Part shown: one piece after another, positions 1 through 57,074 of the stretch | How positions within the stretch are numbered: position 1 is the first letter of the stretch | How the letters are laid out: each line of letters opens with the position of its first letter | Assembly (NCBI RefSeq): GCF_019636075.1 | Contig: NZ_JAHBYG010000013.1 | Location: forward strand, 1 to 64,000 | Reading direction: 5' to 3' | DNA from: Ferrovibrio sp. | Lineage (GTDB): Bacteria > Pseudomonadota > Alphaproteobacteria > Ferrovibrionales > Ferrovibrionaceae | DNA: 64,000 bases | Made by a program: the position numbers and the translations under genes | Notes under the pieces: model-generated | What the model saw: the letters and a program-made list of their open reading frames with translations, nothing else | Told to the model about the DNA's origin: nothing | Databases searched by the model: none

Positions 1-3000
1 TGTTCCGATGGATCGGAATGGCGGAAAGCGGAAGCCGGAATCTGGAATGTTTCGGATTGCTGCTCGCCCAACACACGATCCTGCAAGGTGGCTGCAAGTT
101 CCACCGGATTGATCGGCAGGCTGAAGAAGCTCTGCACGAAAGACGATACGGTGAGCGGCGCACCGCCCAATTGAGAATCGCCGGTGGCGTAGGTGCTGGA
201 TGTACCGCTGGAATTGCCGGTGTTGTTGTTGGAAACCGCATTGGGCTGATTGAGCGCCGTGTTGGTCAACTCCACCGGCGGCAAAGTGGGCGGCGGCGTA
301 ACCACCACGACCGGCGGCGGTGTGGGCGTGGTGGTGCTGGGCGGCGGCGTATCCAGGGATGGCACGCTGAATTGCACCAGAGCGGTGGTGCTGAGCGGAC
401 CGCCTGCCCCGGTATTGCCCAGATCGTTGGAAACGATGGTGAGCAGGCTGGTGCCGCCGGCGGGTTTGGTGATGGTATAGCTCAAACCCGCAAGGGCCGT
501 GTTGATTTGACTCAGCGTACCGGTGAGCACGATATTGTTGGTGTTATTGCCGCCGCTGGTGATCAACGCCGGATCGGTGAGCATCAAGCTGCCTTCGGTA
601 ACCGACAGCGACAGCGTCATGTTGCCGGAGCCGACATCCACATCGCTTACCGAAATTGCTGTCGTCCCGGTAAACAACTGCACACCGCCGGAATTGAGCG
701 TGAGCGCGGAGGGTGCGGTGATTACCGGCGCATCGTCGATCGGGTTGATCGTGATGGCCACCGTGGCAGTGCTTTCTTCATCGCTCGCCCCGCCGCTGAT
801 ACCCGGATCGGCGCCGGTATTGCCCTGATCGTTGAACACAACAGTCAGCGTGTCGCTGCCGTTGTAATTGGCCGTGGGCGTATAGACCATGCCGGCTATC
901 GCCGCATTCAGATCGGCCTTGGTGCCGGTCAGGGTCATGCTGCCGCTATTGTTGCCGCCGGCCGTGAAGGTAAGCCCGGTTGTGCTGCCAAGCGACAACG
1001 TGCCGTGATCGACACTCAGAACCAGGCGCAGAACCCCGCCTTCGTCATCTATATCCGCCAGGGTTATCAGCGTGCCGCCGGTAAAGGTCAGTGTGCTGTC
1101 TTCATCAATGGTCTGCGCACCGGGTGCGGTGATGGTCGGCTGATCGTTGATCGGCCCCATATTGATGCTTACCGTGGCGGTGCGTTCTTCATCGCTCGCG
1201 CCGCCGCTGGTGCCCGGATCGGCGCCGGTATTGCCCTGGTCGTTGAACACGATGGTCAGCGTGTCCGCGCCGTTGTAGCTGGTGGTGGGTGTGTAGGCCA
1301 GGCCATTGATCGCCGCATTCAGATCGGCCTTGGTGCCGGTCAGGGTCATCGTGCCGCTATTGTTGGCACCCGCTGTCACCGTTACACCCGTGGTGCCGGC
1401 CAAGGCCAGCGTGCCGTGATCCACGCTCAGGGTAACCCGCACGATGCCGCCCGCATCATCCACATCCGCAAGCGTGATCAGCTTAGCCCCAGAGAAAGTC
1501 AGCGTGGAATTCTCGCCGATATTCTGCACGCCGGGCACCGTAATGGTCGGCCGGTCGTTGATCGGATTGACCGTGATGGCCACCGTGGACGTGCGTTCTT
1601 CATCGCTCGCGCCGCCGCTGGTGCCCGGATCGGCGCCGGTATTGCCCTGGTCGTTGAACACAACAGTCAGCGTGTCGCTGCCGTTGTAATTCGCGGTCGG
1701 CGTATAGACCAAGCCGTTGATGGCGGCATTCAGATCGGCCTTGGTGCCGGTCAGGGTCATCGTGCCGCTATTGTTGGCACCCGCCGTCACCGTTACACCC
1801 GTGGTACTGGCCAAGGCCAGCGTGCCATGATCCACGCTCAGGGTAACCCGCACGATGCCGCCGGCATCATCCACATCCGCAAGTGTGATCAGCGTACCGC
1901 CTGAGAAGGTCAGCGTGGTGTCTTCATCAATGGTCTGCGCTGTCGGAACCGTAATGGTCGGCCGGTCGTTGATCGGGCTCACCGTGATGGCGACGGTCTT
2001 GCTGTCCTGTTCATAGACCGCCGTGCCGGTGAGGCCCGGATCGATGCCGGTATTGCCATCGTCGCGCAACACCACGGTCAACGTATCGTTGCCGTTGTAA
2101 TTGGCGGTCGGCGTATAGACCAGGCTGGTGATCGCCGCATTCAGCGCCGCCTTGGTGCCGATCAGGGTGATGGTGCTGCTGTCACTGGCACCGGCCGCAA
2201 TGGTCAAGCCGGTAAGGCTGGAGAGGTTAAGGGTGCCATGGCTGACCGACAGAATCACGGTCATCGAATTAGTGCCACCGGACTCGCCGTCATCCACATC
2301 GGCAAAGCTGATCAGCTTGGTGGCATCGAAAGCAATCGGCGTGTCTTCGTTGGTGGTTTGCGCCGACGGCACGGTCACGGTCGGCGTGTCGTTCACCGGA
2401 TGCACCGTGATGGCGACGGTATCGGTGGTCTGTTGCGCGCCGCCGGCCCCGCTATTGCCGTTATCGTTCACCGTGATGGAAAGCGTATCGGCGCCGTTGT
2501 AGTTCAGGTTGCCGCGATAGATCAGGCCCTGCAATGCATTGTTGATCGCGGTCTTGGAACCGGTGAATGTCATGCTTGCATCGGCGGTGCCGTCGCCTGT
2601 GCCGAAAGTGAGGCCGGTCAGGCCGCTGAGCGTGAGCGTGCCATGACTGACCGACAACGTCACAGTCAGGCTGCCGCCGAAATCGTCGCTATCGGTCACC
2701 ACCACGGCATTGCCGTTGCCGGTGGAGAAAGTCAGGTTGGTATCTTCGTTCACTTCCTGCGGCGCCGGCTTGGTAACGCCCGGGGCATCGTTGGATTCCG
2801 ACAGGATCACGGTGATATTCTTGGTATCGGTCAACGCGCCGGTGCCGCCATTGGCCAGGTCGTCGATGGTGGCAGCAATATTCACCGTGGCATCGGGATT
2901 GCCGCCTGGCGGAGCATAGGACAACGTCTGCAACGCGGCATTCAGATCGGCCAGCGTGCCCTCTACCACAATGGTGCTGGAACCATTGCTGGTGCTGCTT

Positions 3001-6000
3001 ACGAACGTGACGCCCGTTACGCTGCCCAGCGTGAGCGTACCGAATGCGGCATTGCCAACCGTATTCGTTGCGACGAGGGTAAGCCGGTAGGTTTCTGTGC
3101 TCAGTTCGTAGGGCGTATCCTTGGCATCGGAGAAGCTGATCGCATTGCCGTTGCCGGTGTTGAATTCCAGCGCCTGCGCAGTGAGGATATATTGCGTGGC
3201 GCCCGGCACCGTGATGGTGGGCGCATCATTCACCGGTGTTACGGTGATATTCACGGTCTTACTATCGGTCTGGGCACCGCCGGTGCCGGTATTGCCGTTA
3301 TCGTTCACCGTCACCGTAAGGGTATCGACGGCCTGCGAATTGAATGCGCCCGCGCCGGTGGCGTTGAAATCGGCACTGGCCGTGTAGCTGAGGCTGGCTA
3401 GCGCGGCGTTCAACGCGGTGCGATTGCCGGTGATGGTCATCGTGGCGGATTCATTGGCGCCGGCACTGATGGTGATATTGCTGGTGGTGCCGAGCTTCAG
3501 CGTACCATGATTGACGCTGAGCGTGACCGAAAGGCTGCTGCCGAAGGAATCCGCGTCGGCAATGGAAATCAGATAGCCGTTATCGGCATTCAGTTCGAGG
3601 GCGGTATCTTCCACAGCGGTTACCGTGGCGGGCGCGGTCAGCGCCGGGGCGTCATTCACATTGGACGCGTTGATGTTGATCGTCTTGGTGACGAAATTAT
3701 AGCCTGCATCCGCACTGGCCGGATCGTCGCCGCCATTATTCACATTCGGCCCGGTGCTGATCTGGTCGTTCACCGTCACCACAAGCTGCAGCGTCCGGTC
3801 TTCATCGGTCGGCACCTGTAATTGCAACCCATCCAATGCAGTGCGTACATCGGCGCGCGTGCCGGAAAACGTGACCGTGGCGGTGCCGTTACCGGTGACC
3901 GCAAGCCCGGATGTGGATGCCAGGGTGAGCGTAGCCGCGGCATAAGTGGCGCCGGAAACCTGCAGATCAAGCGTAACGCTGAGATAATCGTCGGCCGAAC
4001 CCAGCACGAATCCGGGATCGTTGTAATCGGGATCATCCACCACGATGGCATTGTTGTTTGCCGCCGAGAATACCAGCGGCGTGGTGGTGGCAAAGGTTTG
4101 CGTGCCCGGCACGGTAAGCGTGGGAGCGTCGTTCACCTTGGTGATGGTGATATCGTAGGAGCCATCGACCGAGCCCCCTGCGCCATCGCGTACTGTGAAG
4201 TTGAATGTATCGGCGAAATTCTCACTGCCGTTATGGGTGTAGGTAACACGGTTATTATCCAGATCATCCTGGGTAAAGACCGAGCCCAGACCCAATGTCG
4301 CGCCATTCAGCTTCAGCGTGCCATAAGCCACATTGGTGGTGATCAGGTATTGCCGCTGGATGGTGGTGCTGTCGGGATCCTCATAGACCAACCGGAAATC
4401 ATCGCCGGCTGTGCCGTTGCTGCCCTTGATGGTGCCGGTGCCGCCTTCGATCAGCACCATATCCTTGCGCTCGACCGCTACCGGCGGATCGTTCAGCGGC
4501 GCGGCCTTCACATTCACGGTGTAGGGATCGGACAGGCTGTTGCCCTGGCCCTTGTTGTCGTCCACCTGGATCTGGAAGCTGTCGGTGAAGTTTTCGCTGC
4601 CGTCATGCACATAGCGCAGATTGCCGGCATCGAGCTGAGCCTTGGTAATCACCGTGCTGGTGGTAACCGTGGTCTCGAAGCTGCCGTTATTGTCGGCATC
4701 CAGCATCAACGTGCCGTGGCTGGGCAAGGCCACCACTTTGAAGGTCAGATTATTGGCGGTGGAGAAAGTTTCGGTACCGGCCTTGTCGCCGCTGCCATCC
4801 ACATCGGCCAGCGTGAGCACACTGTTGTCGATCAGCGTGTTGCCGCCTTCATTCACCACCGGAACCTTCAGCACCGTGGCCGTGGGCTGGTCGTTCACCG
4901 GCGTGATGTCGAAATCCATGTTGACCAGCGAACTGACATTCTTGCCGTCGCTGACCGTGAACTGCACGCGATTGGAGGTGGTGACGAAATTCTCGCTGCC
5001 GTTATGCTCGTAAGTAATCAGGCCGTTATTCACATCAGCTTGGGTAAAGCTGTCAAACAGCCCCAAAGCCACGCCATTGCGATACAATGTGCCATTGGAG
5101 GATACGTTCTCGATACGATAGACCAGTTGCTCCGGCGTGGAATCCGCGTCGATGGTGATCAGATCGGTATTCGTGATGGTAACCGTGGCGCCTTCATCCA
5201 GCGTGACGGTATTGGCGGTGATCGAAGACGGCGCCTGATTGGCGGCCACGAAATCCAACGCTCCGCCCCCGGGCCCGCCGGCACGGAAAGGCACATCGAT
5301 CTGGAAGGTGATGACGGTGAGCGGCGCCGATTGGCTGGCATCATCATAGATGCCGCCATTGCGGGTATCCGGCCAGGCGCGGATGCCGCCATCCTTCACC
5401 GTGAATTGGAAACTTTCGGTGCGGGCGGTGGAACCGGTGTCGAAAAAACGCACGAGATTGTTGTTGATATCATCCTGGGTAAAGGTACCGCCCACCACCA
5501 GGTATTTCCAATCGGAGCCATCGAAAATCTGCACCTGGCCGCCAGAGGGCACGGTTACCAGGGTGAAGGTGATGTTTTCATCGCCGGAATCGACATCGGT
5601 CACCCTCAGCAGGGTATTGGTGATCAGCAGTTCGCGTCCCGCGCCGTCGTCGATCACGGCATGCTGGTTGGTTTGCAGCACCGGATCGTCGTTGTTGAGC
5701 AGGATTTTGAGCGTGATGGTGGCATCCACGCTCAGCTTGGCGCCCGCCCCTTCGCCGCCGCCATTGTCGGTCACCCGCACATCGAAGGTCTTGGGGCCGG
5801 TCGGCTCGTCCTCGCTGGCATCATAGGTCAGCAGCGAAAGCTGATCAGACATGATGATCTGTCCGATCGTTACCGCCACGCCGTTGTATTTCAGCACGCC
5901 CTCTGTGGGCAGGCTGAGAATCTCGATGCTGTGCGGCCCGTCGCCGATATCCACATCGCCGATGGTGATGGTAACCGCCTTGCCGGTCTCGCCCTCGTAA

Positions 6001-7610
6001 ACATCGGTGGAGCCCTCCACCGTGGGAGCCTGGTTGAGCGGCGTGATGGTGATATTGATCGGGATCGGCGTGCTGGGCGTGCCGCCGGCCTTGCCCAATA
6101 TGCCGCCCGCGCCATCCTCGATACTGACGCTGAAGCTATCCACGATATCGCTCGGCACCTGGCTGCCGTCATGGATGTATTTCAACTGGCCGATCTTGGT
6201 CTGATCGAACACAGTACCCACAACCACCGGATTGCCATTCAAGGTCAGCGTGCCATGGGTTGGCAGCACCTCAACCTTGTAGATGATCTGTACGGCCTGG
6301 TTATCGGGATCGACCGTGGTGAAATTGGCCGTGCTGAACGTCAGTTCGCCGCCTTCCTGCACCGTGGCGCCGTTATTCACCAGCACCGGCACGTCGTTCA
6401 CCGGCGTGATATTCACATTGATGGTCTTGCTGCTGTTGCCATTGGCATCGGCAGCCTGCACCGTGATGGTGGCGGCGCCGGTATAATCGTCGGTGGCGCC
6501 GGAGCCTTCGGTGCCTTTGTATTTCATGCCGTTCAGCGCGGCATTCACATCGGCCACCGAACCGCTGAACGTAACGCTGCCGGTGCCGTTGCCGGTCAGG
6601 CCGCTCAGGCCGCTGGTGGTGGCCAGGCTGATCGTGCCATTGGTGGCAGTTACGGTGATGTTCACCGAGGTTGAATCGGAATCGCTGACAGTGAATTGTG
6701 TCACGGTCAGTTCGGTTGCCTCATTGATGATGAATATCTGGCCAGCCGTGGCCGAGGAATTCACCGTGGGCGGGTTTTCATCGGCCAGCAGGCCATTGAA
6801 GGTCGTCAAAGCTTCATCACTGAACGGCACCGATGCCTCGATGCTGCCGGTGCTGTATTCCAGCACCCAGTCGCCGCCGCGCAGGGCCGCGCCGGTATCG
6901 TTGGTGGATGCTGCCACATCGGCTCCGGTCAGCCGGGCCAGTTCCTGCACGAATGCGGTGCCATCGGGGCTGGCCGCCACCGAGCAGCCGTAGAGCAGCA
7001 GATCGCCGCCAGCCGCCAGCGCCTGCCCCCATTGCGTAACCATATCGGCAGTCGATTGCTGCAGCGCTGCCAGATTGAGCACGGCGCTGCCCAATGCAAT
7101 GGCGCCATCATCGCCATGGCCGAGGATATGCACGGCCCGCACATTCTGCAGCCCGGCCAGCGTATCGGTGATCGCCTGAATGCCATCCTCATCGGCGCCG
7201 ATGAAACGCACCAGCACGGATGGCCCGAGATCGGCGGCCAGGGCCTGAGCGCCTTCCACCTTGGCATCGATGAACACAACGGTCTTCGGGCTATTCTCGA
7301 TGGCCTCCAGCGCGGTTTGCGGCGGCGCTACCAGCTCGCCGGTTTCCGCAGCGGAAGCCTGTTGCGCTTCGCCAACCGCATCTTCGTTCTGGGTGAGTGA
7401 CGCAATCAGCGCTGCTACTTCGGCTTGCTGCTGATCCTGGCTTTGCTGTGCCGGTTCATTCTGCGATTGATTTTGCGTTGCATCCGTCACCGCAGCCGGC
7501 GCGGCGGCATCGAACAGGATGCGAGGCTCAAGCGCACGCAGAGTGAGTGGCTGATATACAGCCTCAAGATGATGCCTTTTGCTCGAATTTTTCTTCGGCC
7601 GCAAAAACAT
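1..7610 (-). CDS. Giant cadherin/VCBS-like repeat adhesin, N-terminal 2,536 residues (3' end outside window)
   Basis: An uninterrupted minus-strand frame starts at ATG 7608-7610 behind a GAGGAAA ribosome site and runs off the left edge with no stop. The N-terminus carries LEPRILFDAAA (about residues 29-39), the LEPR-type signature of very large surface proteins. A DUF4347 domain (about 105-270) follows, with a LGHG motif at His165 and LYGC at Cys209. From about residue 280 on there are cadherin/VCBS-like modules ending in 'NDxPT' and carrying 'D/NxG(A/S)DTLT(I/V)VxNDxGNTG'. At least three adjacent modules near residues 1880-2290 are nearly identical 137-residue (411 bp) repeats. A Pro/Thr-rich linker lies near residues 2415-2450. 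Such proteins are usually exported by type I secretion and mediate adhesion or biofilm formation. That role is inferred, since the C-terminal secretion signal is not visible and no transporter genes are in view. Confidence 0.9.
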   Translation of the reverse strand, partial: MFLRPKKNSSKRHHLEAVYQPLTLRALEPRILFDAAAPAAVTDATQNQSQNEPAQQSQDQQQAEVAALIASLTQNEDAVGEAQQASAAETGELVAPPQTALEAIENSPKTVVFIDAKVEGAQALAADLGPSVLVRFIGADEDGIQAITDTLAGLQNVRAVHILGHGDDGAIALGSAVLNLAALQQSTADMVTQWGQALAAGGDLLLYGCSVAASPDGTAFVQELARLTGADVAASTNDTGAALRGGDWVLEYSTGSIEASVPFSDEALTTFNGLLADENPPTVNSSATAGQIFIINEATELTVTQFTVSDSDSTSVNITVTATNGTISLATTSGLSGLTGNGTGSVTFSGSVADVNAALNGMKYKGTEGSGATDDYTGAATITVQAADANGNSSKTINVNITPVNDVPVLVNNGATVQEGGELTFSTANFTTVDPDNQAVQIIYKVEVLPTHGTLTLNGNPVVVGTVFDQTKIGQLKYIHDGSQVPSDIVDSFSVSIEDGAGGILGKAGGTPSTPIPINITITPLNQAPTVEGSTDVYEGETGKAVTITIGDVDIGDGPHSIEILSLPTEGVLKYNGVAVTIGQIIMSDQLSLLTYDASEDEPTGPKTFDVRVTDNGGGEGAGAKLSVDATITLKILLNNDDPVLQTNQHAVIDDGAGRELLITNTLLRVTDVDSGDENITFTLVTVPSGGQVQIFDGSDWKYLVVGGTFTQDDINNNLVRFFDTGSTARTESFQFTVKDGGIRAWPDTRNGGIYDDASQSAPLTVITFQIDVPFRAGGPGGGALDFVAANQAPSSITANTVTLDEGATVTITNTDLITIDADSTPEQLVYRIENVSSNGTLYRNGVALGLFDSFTQADVNNGLITYEHNGSENFVTTSNRVQFTVSDGKNVSSLVNMDFDITPVNDQPTATVLKVPVVNEGGNTLIDNSVLTLADVDGSGDKAGTETFSTANNLTFKVVALPSHGTLMLDADNNGSFETTVTTSTVITKAQLDAGNLRYVHDGSENFTDSFQIQVDDNKGQGNSLSDPYTVNVKAAPLNDPPVAVERKDMVLIEGGTGTIKGSNGTAGDDFRLVYEDPDSTTIQRQYLITTNVAYGTLKLNGATLGLGSVFTQDDLDNNRVTYTHNGSENFADTFNFTVRDGAGGSVDGSYDITITKVNDAPTLTVPGTQTFATTTPLVFSAANNNAIVVDDPDYNDPGFVLGSADDYLSVTLDLQVSGATYAAATLTLASTSGLAVTGNGTATVTFSGTRADVRTALDGLQLQVPTDEDRTLQLVVTVNDQISTGPNVNNGGDDPASADAGYNFVTKTININASNVNDAPALTAPATVTAVEDTALELNADNGYLISIADADSFGSSLSVTLSVNHGTLKLGTTSNITISAGANESATMTITGNRTALNAALASLSYTASADFNATGAGAFNSQAVDTLTVTVNDNGNTGTGGAQTDSKTVNITVTPVNDAPTITVPGATQYILTAQALEFNTGNGNAISFSDAKDTPYELSTETYRLTLVATNTVGNAAFGTLTLGSVTGVTFVSSTSNGSSTIVVEGTLADLNAALQTLSYAPPGGNPDATVNIAATIDDLANGGTGALTDTKNITVILSESNDAPGVTKPAPQEVNEDTNLTFSTGNGNAVVVTDSDDFGGSLTVTLSVSHGTLTLSGLTGLTFGTGDGTADASMTFTGSKTAINNALQGLIYRGNLNYNGADTLSITVNDNGNSGAGGAQQTTDTVAITVHPVNDTPTVTVPSAQTTNEDTPIAFDATKLISFADVDDGESGGTNSMTVILSVSHGTLNLSSLTGLTIAAGASDSSTITLIGTKAALNAAITSLVYTPTANYNGNDTLTVVLRDDGNTGIDPGLTGTAVYEQDSKTVAITVSPINDRPTITVPTAQTIDEDTTLTFSGGTLITLADVDDAGGIVRVTLSVDHGTLALASTTGVTVTAGANNSGTMTLTGTKADLNAAINGLVYTPTANYNGSDTLTVVFNDQGNTGADPGTSGGASDEERTSTVAITVNPINDRPTITVPGVQNIGENSTLTFSGAKLITLADVDDAGGIVRVTLSVDHGTLALAGTTGVTVTAGANNSGTMTLTGTKADLNAAINGLAYTPTTSYNGADTLTIVFNDQGNTGADPGTSGGASDEERTATVSINMGPINDQPTITAPGAQTIDEDSTLTFTGGTLITLADIDDEGGVLRLVLSVDHGTLSLGSTTGLTFTAGGNNSGSMTLTGTKADLNAAIAGMVYTPTANYNGSDTLTVVFNDQGNTGADPGISGGASDEESTATVAITINPIDDAPVITAPSALTLNSGGVQLFTGTTAISVSDVDVGSGNMTLSLSVTEGSLMLTDPALITSGGNNTNNIVLTGTLSQINTALAGLSYTITKPAGGTSLLTIVSNDLGNTGAGGPLSTTALVQFSVPSLDTPPPSTTTPTPPPVVVVTPPPTLPPVELTNTALNQPNAVSNNNTGNSSGTSSTYATGDSQLGGAPLTVSSFVQSFFSLPINPVELAATLQDRVLGEQQSETFQIPASAFRHSDPSE
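777..2010 (-). repeat. 411-bp tandem repeats inside the adhesin gene
   Basis: The sequence ttcatcgctcgc recurs at 777, 1188 and 1599, exactly 411 bp apart, within long near-identical blocks. A more diverged copy follows toward 2010. The period is 137 codons, so copies can be gained or lost by recombination without breaking the frame. Confidence 0.85.
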
Positions 7611-7722
7611 TGGTTTCCTCATTCGATATCACAGCGAGTACCGACCGCTGATCGCCATCTAATGTATTGCAGTCTAGGCTTGTATATTATGAGCTTAAAA
7701 AACGCCTTCTGGATTAGAGAAT

Positions 7723-45584: not shown

Positions 45585-46325
45585 GTGACCGTAATTCCCG
45601 CCCCCAGCCGCCAATTGGAAACCGCAGATGGGCCGGTGGATTGGGCGGTCAGCGATGGCTTGGTGCCCTATGCGGAGGCCCTGGCCGCCATGGAAGCGCG
45701 GGTGGCAGCCATCCGGGCAGGTACGGCGCCCGAGCTGATCTGGCTGCTACAGCACCCGCCGCTCTACACCGCCGGCACCTCGGCCAAACCGCAGGATCTG
45801 CTGGATGCCCGCTTCCCGGTCCATGCCACCGGCCGCGGAGGACAATATACCTATCATGGCCCCGGCCAGCGTATTGCCTATGTGATGCTGGACCTGGCCA
45901 AGCGCGGCCGCGACCTGCGCAACTTCGTCTGCCGGATGGAGGACTGGGTGATCGACAGCCTGGGCCAGTTCGGCATCCGCGCCGAGCGCCGGCCCGGCCG
46001 GGTGGGCGTATGGGTATCCCGGCCAGATAAGGGGCCAAGCCAGGGGGCCGCCGGGCGGGAGGACAAGATCGCCGCCATCGGCGTGCGGGTGCGCCATTGG
46101 GTGACCTATCATGGCCTGAGCCTGAATGTGGAACCCGATCTCAGGCATTACTCGGGCATCGTGCCCTGCGGTATCCACGACGACGCGGCGACGCCGTTCG
46201 GTGTCACCTCGCTGGTGGATTTGGGCCTGCCGGTCAGCCTGAATGATGTAGATACTATATTGTTTTCAATGCTTTCAGGGTCACTTCTAGAGCGCCTTGA
46301 TAATAATCGATGTAGCGTAGATTGA
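45585..46325 (+). CDS. lipB: Lipoyl(octanoyl) transferase LipB
   Basis: A 246-residue enzyme that moves octanoyl groups from acyl carrier protein to lipoyl domains of 2-oxoacid dehydrogenases. Visible: '[22 protein letters not shown]' (about 83-104), '[19 protein letters not shown]' with the catalytic Lys, and 'GIVPCGI' with the catalytic Cys. It starts with GTG after AAGG. It is divergent from fliN. Its 3' end is immediately followed by three parS sites. Confidence 0.94.
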
Positions 46326-46330
46326 GGCGG

Positions 46331-46346
46331 TGTTTCACGTGAAACA
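46331..46346. other. parS site 1
   Basis: TGTTTCACGTGAAACA, an exact match to the canonical bacterial chromosomal parS palindrome bound by ParB. It begins six bases after the lipB stop. Confidence 0.93.
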
Positions 46347-46364
46347 CCCGTATCGTTCGCCGAC

Positions 46365-46380
46365 TGTTTCACGTGAAACA
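46365..46380. other. parS site 2
   Basis: A second exact TGTTTCACGTGAAACA, 34 bp after the first. Flanking GAC/GTC extends the palindrome to 22 bp. Confidence 0.93.
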
Positions 46381-46398
46381 GTCGCGTCGTTCGCTGAG

Positions 46399-46414
46399 TG
46401 TTTCACGTGAAACA
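46399..46414. other. parS site 3
   Basis: A third exact TGTTTCACGTGAAACA, 34 bp after the second. Flanking GAG/CTC again extends the palindrome to 22 bp. Confidence 0.93.
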
Positions 46415-46473
46415 CTCTATATGGACTTAGCCTGCATTTCTTATTAATTACATTAGAAATATACGACAAACTA

Positions 46474-46740
46474 TTATTTTTTATTGTTTTTTCGTTCAAG
46501 ATCGCGGCGCTGCTGGCGCGTCATATTCGCTGGATCGGGCTGCTGGGCGGCGCGTTCCGCCTTGATATTCCGGCCCGAGATGTAAAACACAAAGAAAGCG
46601 GTAAAGGCCAGAATGGCGCCAAAACCCAGCCAGGTATTGTTGGTGCCATACCAGACCAGACCACCCAAGCTCAGCGAGCCGATATAGCAGGCGGCCCATT
46701 GCTTCCAATTCATCTTGGCGGGATTTTTCTTATTTTCCAT
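46474..46740 (-). CDS. Small membrane protein, hypothetical
   Basis: An 88-residue protein with a basic N-terminus, two transmembrane helices (about 16-34 and 37-55) and a charged C-terminal tail (MTRQQRRDLERKNNKK). No family recognised. It lies just beyond the parS array and just downstream of the acylphosphatase gene on the same strand. Confidence 0.7.
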   Translation of the reverse strand: MENKKNPAKMNWKQWAACYIGSLSLGGLVWYGTNNTWLGFGAILAFTAFFVFYISGRNIKAERAAQQPDPANMTRQQRRDLERKNNKK

Positions 46741-46771
46741 GGCTTAACCCGAATATTATAACCTGATACTA

Positions 46772-47086
46772 TTAATCTGCCGTGGCAACTTGCTCAAACC
46801 CGGCCAACGCGGCCAGACCGGATATTTCGGCAGCCGAAACCGGCCCGGTCTCCACCTTCAGAACCTTGGCGGCGGGTGGCCCGCCCCACAGGGCGGCCGC
46901 CAGGGCATCCAGGCTATCCTGGGTGCCGGCCGCCAGCAATTCCACAGAGCCATCTCGGCAATTACGGACCCAGCCGACCAGCCCCAGCTTGCGGGCGCGG
47001 CCTATGGTCCAGTAGCGGAAGCCCACACCCTGCACCCGCCCCTGTACGAAATACCGTCTCGCCTGTCTGGCACCCATCATCGTCAT
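46772..47086 (-). CDS. acyP: Acylphosphatase
   Basis: A 104-residue acylphosphatase. 'GRVQGVGFRYW' (about residues 16-26) holds the catalytic Arg, and 'VRNCRDGSVEL' the Asn. It hydrolyses carboxyl-phosphate bonds in small molecules such as acetyl phosphate or 1,3-bisphosphoglycerate. The fold is a compact ferredoxin-like domain and the length is normal. Confidence 0.93.
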   Translation of the reverse strand: MTMMGARQARRYFVQGRVQGVGFRYWTIGRARKLGLVGWVRNCRDGSVELLAAGTQDSLDALAAALWGGPPAAKVLKVETGPVSAAEISGLAALAGFEQVATAD

Positions 47087-56430: not shown

Positions 56431-56829
56431 TCAAACCCAATTCTCCACCTGCAAACCTGGCATACGGTCGAATTCGCGCGTGTTATTGGTCACTAGCACC
56501 AAACCCTCGCTGCGTGCATGGGCGCCAATCATCATGTCATGCACTCCGCAAGGCTGGCCGGCACGGCGCAAAACTGCACGCAGATCGCCATAATGCTCGG
56601 CAGCCTTGCCCGCAAAGGGCAGAATCTCCAGACGCGCGGCGAAATGCGCCAATGCTTCGGCATTCTGCGCTTGGCGGTCGGAATTGGCCACGCCGTAATG
56701 CAATTCCGCCAGCGTTATGCTGGAAATGCAAAGCTCTTCTGCCTGCAGACTGAACCGTTCGCCGAGCGATCTGGGCCGGTTCTTCATCACATAGATGCAG
56801 ATATTGGTATTCAGCATATAGCGCAGCAT
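56431..56829 (-). CDS. vapC: VapC family PIN-domain toxin with Asn at the first catalytic position
   Basis: A 132-residue PIN ribonuclease of the VapC type: 'YMLNTNICIYVMKNRP' at the start, Glu in 'ITLAELHYGVANS', 'CGVHDMMIGAHAR' with the central Asp, and 'LVTNNTREFDRMPGL'. The family normally has Asp where Asn7 stands (LDTN), a metal-binding residue, so the toxin may be weakened or inactive. Its ATG shares one base with the vapB stop (TGATG), the usual coupled layout. Confidence 0.88.
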   Translation of the reverse strand: MLRYMLNTNICIYVMKNRPRSLGERFSLQAEELCISSITLAELHYGVANSDRQAQNAEALAHFAARLEILPFAGKAAEHYGDLRAVLRRAGQPCGVHDMMIGAHARSEGLVLVTNNTREFDRMPGLQVENWV

Positions 56830-57074
56830 CAGAGCGGTTCCCGCTCCTCTGCCGGAGCATCGCTGCGCTCGTCATCGCGCTCGACCATGAAATCCGCGCT
56901 GGCGCGTGGCCCAGAGGCAAAAAAATCATCCCAGCGTTTGCCTACAGGGCTCAGCAGCAGGCTCTGCCCCAGCCGGATGATTTCCACCTGTTTGATCTCG
57001 GGCGGAAAAGCCAATGCCTTAGGCAGCCGAACAGCCTGGGTGCGGTTATTGGTGAAGAGGCTGGATCTGATCAT
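56829..57074 (-). CDS. vapB: VapB family antitoxin
   Basis: An 81-residue antitoxin with an N-terminal AbrB-like swapped-hairpin DNA-binding domain ('SSLFTNNRTQAVRLPKALAFPPEIKQVEIIRLGQSLLLSP', about 4-43) and an acidic C-terminal toxin-binding tail (WDDFFASG ... ERDDERSDAPAEEREPL). It neutralises VapC and represses the pair. A 17-bp-arm palindrome lies ten bases upstream, a clear operator candidate. Confidence 0.9.
   Translation of the reverse strand: MIRSSLFTNNRTQAVRLPKALAFPPEIKQVEIIRLGQSLLLSPVGKRWDDFFASGPRASADFMVERDDERSDAPAEEREPL

Follow-up and report, generated by a model that had tools for sequence, protein, structure and literature searches.

The parS array downstream of lipB in the Ferrovibrio sp. 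genome is probably a genuine ParB nucleation site of an origin-distal class, in which parS has two parts, the 16-bp palindrome and a TGTTC box. This reading is based on the sequences of the sites, the fixed offset of the box, the contrast between distal and parAB-cluster sites, the placement off the origin by synteny and the retention of site positions between congeners, all of which were shown by the analysis. The window, which is the whole stretch of 64,000 nucleotides that was analysed, belongs to contig C5 of the source genome (4.01 Mb in 85 contigs). The array and its borders comprise the following features.

45585-46325, + strand: lipB (lipoyl/octanoyl transferase; Pfam LplA-B_cat, E 1.2e-35), its stop codon 5 bp before the array
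46331-46346, no strand: parS unit 1, a perfect 16-mer in a 20-bp palindrome (GG...CC), outer side without a box
46354-46360, + strand: CGTTCGC box before unit 2, its GTTC (46355-46358) starting 10 bp before parS unit 2
46365-46380, no strand: parS unit 2, a perfect 16-mer in a 22-bp palindrome (GAC...GTC)
46388-46394, + strand: CGTTCGC box before unit 3, its GTTC (46389-46392) starting 10 bp before parS unit 3
46399-46414, no strand: parS unit 3, a perfect 16-mer in a 22-bp palindrome (GAG...CTC)
46474-46740, - strand: small ORF of 88 aa, convergent with lipB, with coding-like codon composition

The three mismatch-free parS 34 bp apart after lipB that were reported in the initial annotation were reproduced by the window search. 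TGTTTCACGTGAAACA is found at 46331, 46365 and 46399 with 0 mismatches each, and these are the only matches in the window at three or fewer mismatches; the shuffled expectation was 0.08 and no shuffle gave three matches. The 22-bp extended palindromes noticed at two of the units are those of units 2 and 3, and the cgttcgc said to be shared by the spacers is the box itself, both spacers containing TCGTTCGC. The composite pattern of box and parS matches at C5:46355-46380. The array occupies a convergent intergenic gap, with the 88-aa ORF, for which no Pfam match was found, and an acylphosphatase gene on the opposite strand. Because the spacers have drifted (identity 12/18) while the cores are unchanged (16/16), the array seems to have arisen by tandem duplication of a single box-parS unit, the core of which has been kept by selection.

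It is very improbable that the palindromes are primarily RNA hairpins, acting as a lipB terminator or mRNA stabiliser, or a REP-like element, with a secondary likeness to parS. The extended palindromes have compensating flanks, the array strand folds very well (z -6.2) and the parS at mnmG in congeners sits in a terminator-like stem, but the cores are identical to parS at 16/16 positions at unrelated loci while the stems vary, and the fixed box is left unexplained. No terminator-like site (GC-rich stem and T-run) was found in 45900-46900. A terminator or hairpin function of the array was rejected because no T-run follows it and because unrelated parS sites often have extended palindromes as well. 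After mnmG, the congeners have a perfect parS inside a stem of the form AAAAGGGGA-parS-TCCCCTTTT (L166 5255-5300, G006 C1 about 1335271; also L132, L141 and L142), and since a perfect parS lies within a terminator-like stem there, the mnmG palindrome may have a double role, as parS and as the stem of a terminator.

The source genome contains 18 perfect parS 16-mers on 10 contigs, with a random expectation of about 0.001 for a perfect 16-mer, and two further sites with one mismatch, one in an array on C12 and one on C51. Six of the perfect sites surround mnmG-rsmG-parA-parB on C34 and the other twelve are spread over nine loci or contigs. Only one protein has the ParB_N, HTH_ParB and ParB_C domains, encoded at C34:61495 in a single canonical parAB; the array is therefore on another contig than its operon, as the absence of parA and parB from the window had indicated. 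The residues that set parS versus NBS specificity in ParB-family proteins have been described (PMC7383237). Aligned to Caulobacter ParB (6t1f), the protein has the R173, T179 and G201 equivalents, with Q at the variable position 184, and the contact residues G170, K171, S172, N178 and R204 are retained. Given 18 perfect copies and one ParB with the residues for parS specificity and contact, the 16-mers of the array are very probably readable by the genome's own ParB. The identification as canonical parS is thus upheld, both by the three perfect copies of the consensus and by a cognate ParB with the parS-reading residues (R173, T179 and G201 equivalents plus GKS/N/R). A second parS-reading ParB was considered and rejected, the extra ParB_N matches being a mobile-element pair on C19 and short ORFs without HTH_ParB matches. 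The C19 locus (L201) consists of a recombinase-like ORF with two ParB-like ORFs in tandem after it and looks like a mobile element; no equivalent of its ParB_N match was found in the congeners G003 or G006.

Because the source assembly is fragmented and not closed, the positions of the array and of the other distal loci rest on synteny with relatives. The congener G006 is available as one contig of 4.26 Mb, in which skew and KOPS orientation, sampled as 20 kb every 213 kb, switch near 1.2-1.5 Mb and again at 3.41-3.62 Mb, with parAB at 1.337 Mb. There lipB, at 3.133 Mb, is separated from parAB by 1.80 Mb, as against 1.79 Mb in G003. Taken together, lipB and the neighbouring maeB are 1.79-1.80 Mb from parAB in these two relatives, on the terminus side in the closed-looking G006. 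Transferred by synteny, the array would be about 1.8 Mb from parAB, at 84% of the arm length. The neighbours of all nine distal parS loci of the source genome map 0.95-1.89 Mb from parAB in G006 (maximum 2.13), although the C16 neighbour is matched at just 56% identity and may not be an orthologue; for all nine to lie that far out P is about 0.005 if positions are uniform. Synteny of the window is partly broken, as ccoN maps to another place; the genes that bracket the array, maeB, lipB and glnA, are terminus-side in both relatives.

By synteny with the congeners the array would be near the terminus and not on the origin side. The initial annotation had placed it near the origin, which is not supported by the distances of lipB and maeB or by the window itself, with its one-sided KOPS (6:0) and skew of -0.034. 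The corresponding explanation, a canonical origin-proximal centromere array, is extremely improbable: the 16-mers are as perfect as it would have them, but skew and KOPS put the region near the terminus, lipB and maeB are 1.8 Mb from parAB in two relatives and a separate 6-site cluster is found at parAB in the same genome.

The nine congeners have 2-12 parS sites each at one mismatch or fewer. None of the nine has the array after lipB. The expectation that the triplet would recur after lipB in related genomes did not hold, and conservation of the array throughout the genus was ruled out; the class of site is nonetheless common to the genus. The C12 array (33-bp spacing) and a one-mismatch site in G003 share an ArsR/cation-efflux/transporter neighbourhood, a parS site at a NUDIX pair is common to the source genome and G003, and a 34-bp parS doublet adjoins lysC/ubiG in both G003 and G009. 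The eight genomes that represent other genera of the family each contain only one or two parS, the listed pairs being about 1.95 kb apart on one contig, which is the spacing seen around mnmG. With so few sites in the other genera, and with mnmG-like spacing, the distal parS appear to be an addition of this genus.

The box has the consensus (T/C)GTTC(C/G) and is one-sided at most sites, with TGTTC beginning outside the 16-mer at a distance of 10-11 bp. Across the genus, 74 distinct parS contexts were compared: the start of GTTC is offset by 10 bp in 30 flanks and by 9 bp in four, while all other offsets together give nine occurrences. After conservative merging to non-redundant loci, 11 of 18 distal loci carry the box (P about 3e-19), a fraction that understates the effect because contexts were merged permissively, so that a few distal sites were counted with the cluster group. 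The parAB-cluster sites of G000 (the source genome), G003, G004, G006 and G007 have no box. Among the distal loci of the source genome it is present at offset 10 on C5, C12, C16 and C25, is a near-miss on C51 (offset 9) and C15 (offset 12), and is absent on C22, C35 and C57. The C25 site (L009) is a perfect boxed parS (1501-1516) between alaS and a Cas9-like gene (Pfam Cas9_a, 3.8e-08; coordinates also 2-1243).

At 484 parS from 118 unrelated triplet loci the box is not above chance, with 2 matches at offset 10. The composite was found in 385 Alphaproteobacteria with 31 matches in 12 genomes at offset 10 and 5 matches in 5 genomes at offset 12, and the boxed arrangement is present in at least three other alphaproteobacterial families. 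In one such genome, G228, the box accompanies 8 of 10 dispersed parS versus 1 of 8 parAB-cluster sites. For G228, G054, G278, G354 and G282 together the figures are 15/18 distal versus 1/17 cluster sites, where the boxed distal fraction is biased upward because these five genomes were chosen for having composite matches; this selection matters less for the comparison with their own clusters and for the offset control. The skew of G228 places the origin at 1.88-2.02 Mb and the terminus at 0.37-0.51 Mb, and with these skew-placed limits, even read generously, nine of the ten dispersed parS are beyond the 20% origin domain. In G282 the boxed sites are just 0.16-0.33 Mb from the cluster. Viral contigs showed no excess at offset 10 (40, 27 and 37 contigs at offsets 10, 9 and 12), and a viral origin or decoy was rejected since composite counts there are independent of offset. 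One boxed distal parS of G228 (L309, C1 2629187; parS at 1488-1503) is about 0.8 kb from a lipB (2301-2999), which is probably a coincidence.

In the simplest mechanism proposed, the single canonical ParB would bind the 16-mer and load there. The box would provide a further contact one helical turn out from the inner GTTTC, probably on the same face of the DNA, made either by a second ParB dimer using the box as a partial half-site or by a partner protein. Through such a contact the distal sites could act on the terminus-side arms as local anchors or for SMC loading, and the box may let the cell keep distal ParB loading, in neither case with a second centromere. Extended beyond the genus, the chances are about even that some Alphaproteobacteria have a second, functionally distinct class of parS, with box and parS on the origin-distal arms and ParB plus a second contact or partner, by which the terminus half is organised or marked without a second centromere.

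Somewhat unlikely, yet a serious rival, is that an unrelated second protein reads the box beside ParB, for example as a roadblock limiting ParB sliding or as a regulator using parS-bound ParB; in that case the distal sites would have a regulatory or insulated role and not be for ParB only. TGTTC resembles the start of a half-site, but this rival has to be taken seriously because TGTTC(C/G) is without the inner CAC of the half-parS heptamers GTTCCAC and GTTTCAC bound by Pseudomonas ParB (PMC10419367). The box is also one-sided at most sites, and its orientation relative to the ori-ter axis is mixed in G228 when site positions are compared with skew, for which reason a polarity of the box along that axis was rejected. 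Against a separate reader, a contact made by ParB only would also be in keeping with the constant 11-bp distance to the inner GTTTC and the TGTT(T/C)C resemblance, and no candidate box-reading protein was found.

The P1 plasmid parS is a two-element centromere consisting of box A and box B. The boxed distal parS resemble it in that a ParB palindrome is accompanied, at a fixed spacing, by another short motif, but they are chromosomal, their box sequence is unrelated and no sign was found here of a second DNA-contact surface in ParB. The distribution of Noc sites is the reverse of the terminus-half placement of the distal parS in the source genome. The Noc binding sites (NBS) of Firmicutes are, like the sites here by prediction, dispersed palindromes read by a ParB-family protein, but the array has the sequence of parS, which differs from NBS at positions 1 and 6 (PMC7383237). 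A Noc system would combine NBS with the Noc-type residues Q173, K179, K184 and R201; in this genome the sites are parS and the sole HTH_ParB protein is of ParB type.

The half-parS of P. aeruginosa are likewise dispersed over the chromosome and involve GTTC/GTTTC (PMC10419367, PMC7022226). Unlike these, the distal sites are full perfect palindromes, each genome has few of them, and their box, at a constant distance, has no inner CAC; isolated GTTCCAC or GTTTCAC, by which half-parS are recognised, does not describe the array, with its full palindromes and box without CAC. With the origin-domain parS clusters of Caulobacter, B. subtilis and Streptomyces the array shares the identical 16-bp sequence, an encoded cognate canonical ParB, multiple sites and close arrays; unlike them it is terminus-side by synteny, GTTC-boxed and apart from the parAB cluster. 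In Caulobacter extra parS are tolerated up to about 500 kb from the native cluster and in a small ter zone but are disfavoured mid-arm (PMC5815017), and parS of P. aeruginosa functions only if oriC is no more than about 650 kb away (PMC5098823). Given these positional limits, natural mid-arm parS are unexpected.

parS is regarded as an origin mark, and Caulobacter and Pseudomonas are harmed when it is moved to the arms. With perfect, often boxed parS kept distally by nature, this genus raises the question of how cells separate centromeric from non-centromeric ParB loading, and the boxed sites that of whether there are still undescribed DNA contacts or partners of ParB. Being short, the composite lends itself to direct testing. 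The combination of distal position and fixed box is not described in the non-subscription literature searched, nor was a precedent found there for parS spread round the chromosome or with a flanking element.

The regular spacing of the array is a different matter. A scan for dense triplets gave at least 118 parS triplet loci from many phyla, and 41 of the 118 listed have at least one pair of equal successive gaps. Because dense triplets are widespread and many have equal gaps, a regular dense parS triplet alone is ordinary and common across phyla. The gaps in the 118 listed loci peak at 37-39 bp, 34 bp accounting for 6 of 296, with no strong 10-11 bp periodicity; the suggestion that 34-bp helical phasing is a preferred geometry was thus not borne out. 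Rows of parS with three or more strictly equal gaps were seen in many phyla (for example 49 x 5, 43 x 4 and 39 x 4; L055, L059, L103, L110 and others among L013-L130), and this strict regularity merits a survey of its own.

Elsewhere in the window, positions 56431-57074 encode a PIN-domain toxin and a MazE-type antitoxin (a VapBC-like pair), and positions 3-7622 a cadherin/Ig-repeat protein of 2540 aa with DUF4347, probably a large surface or secreted protein.
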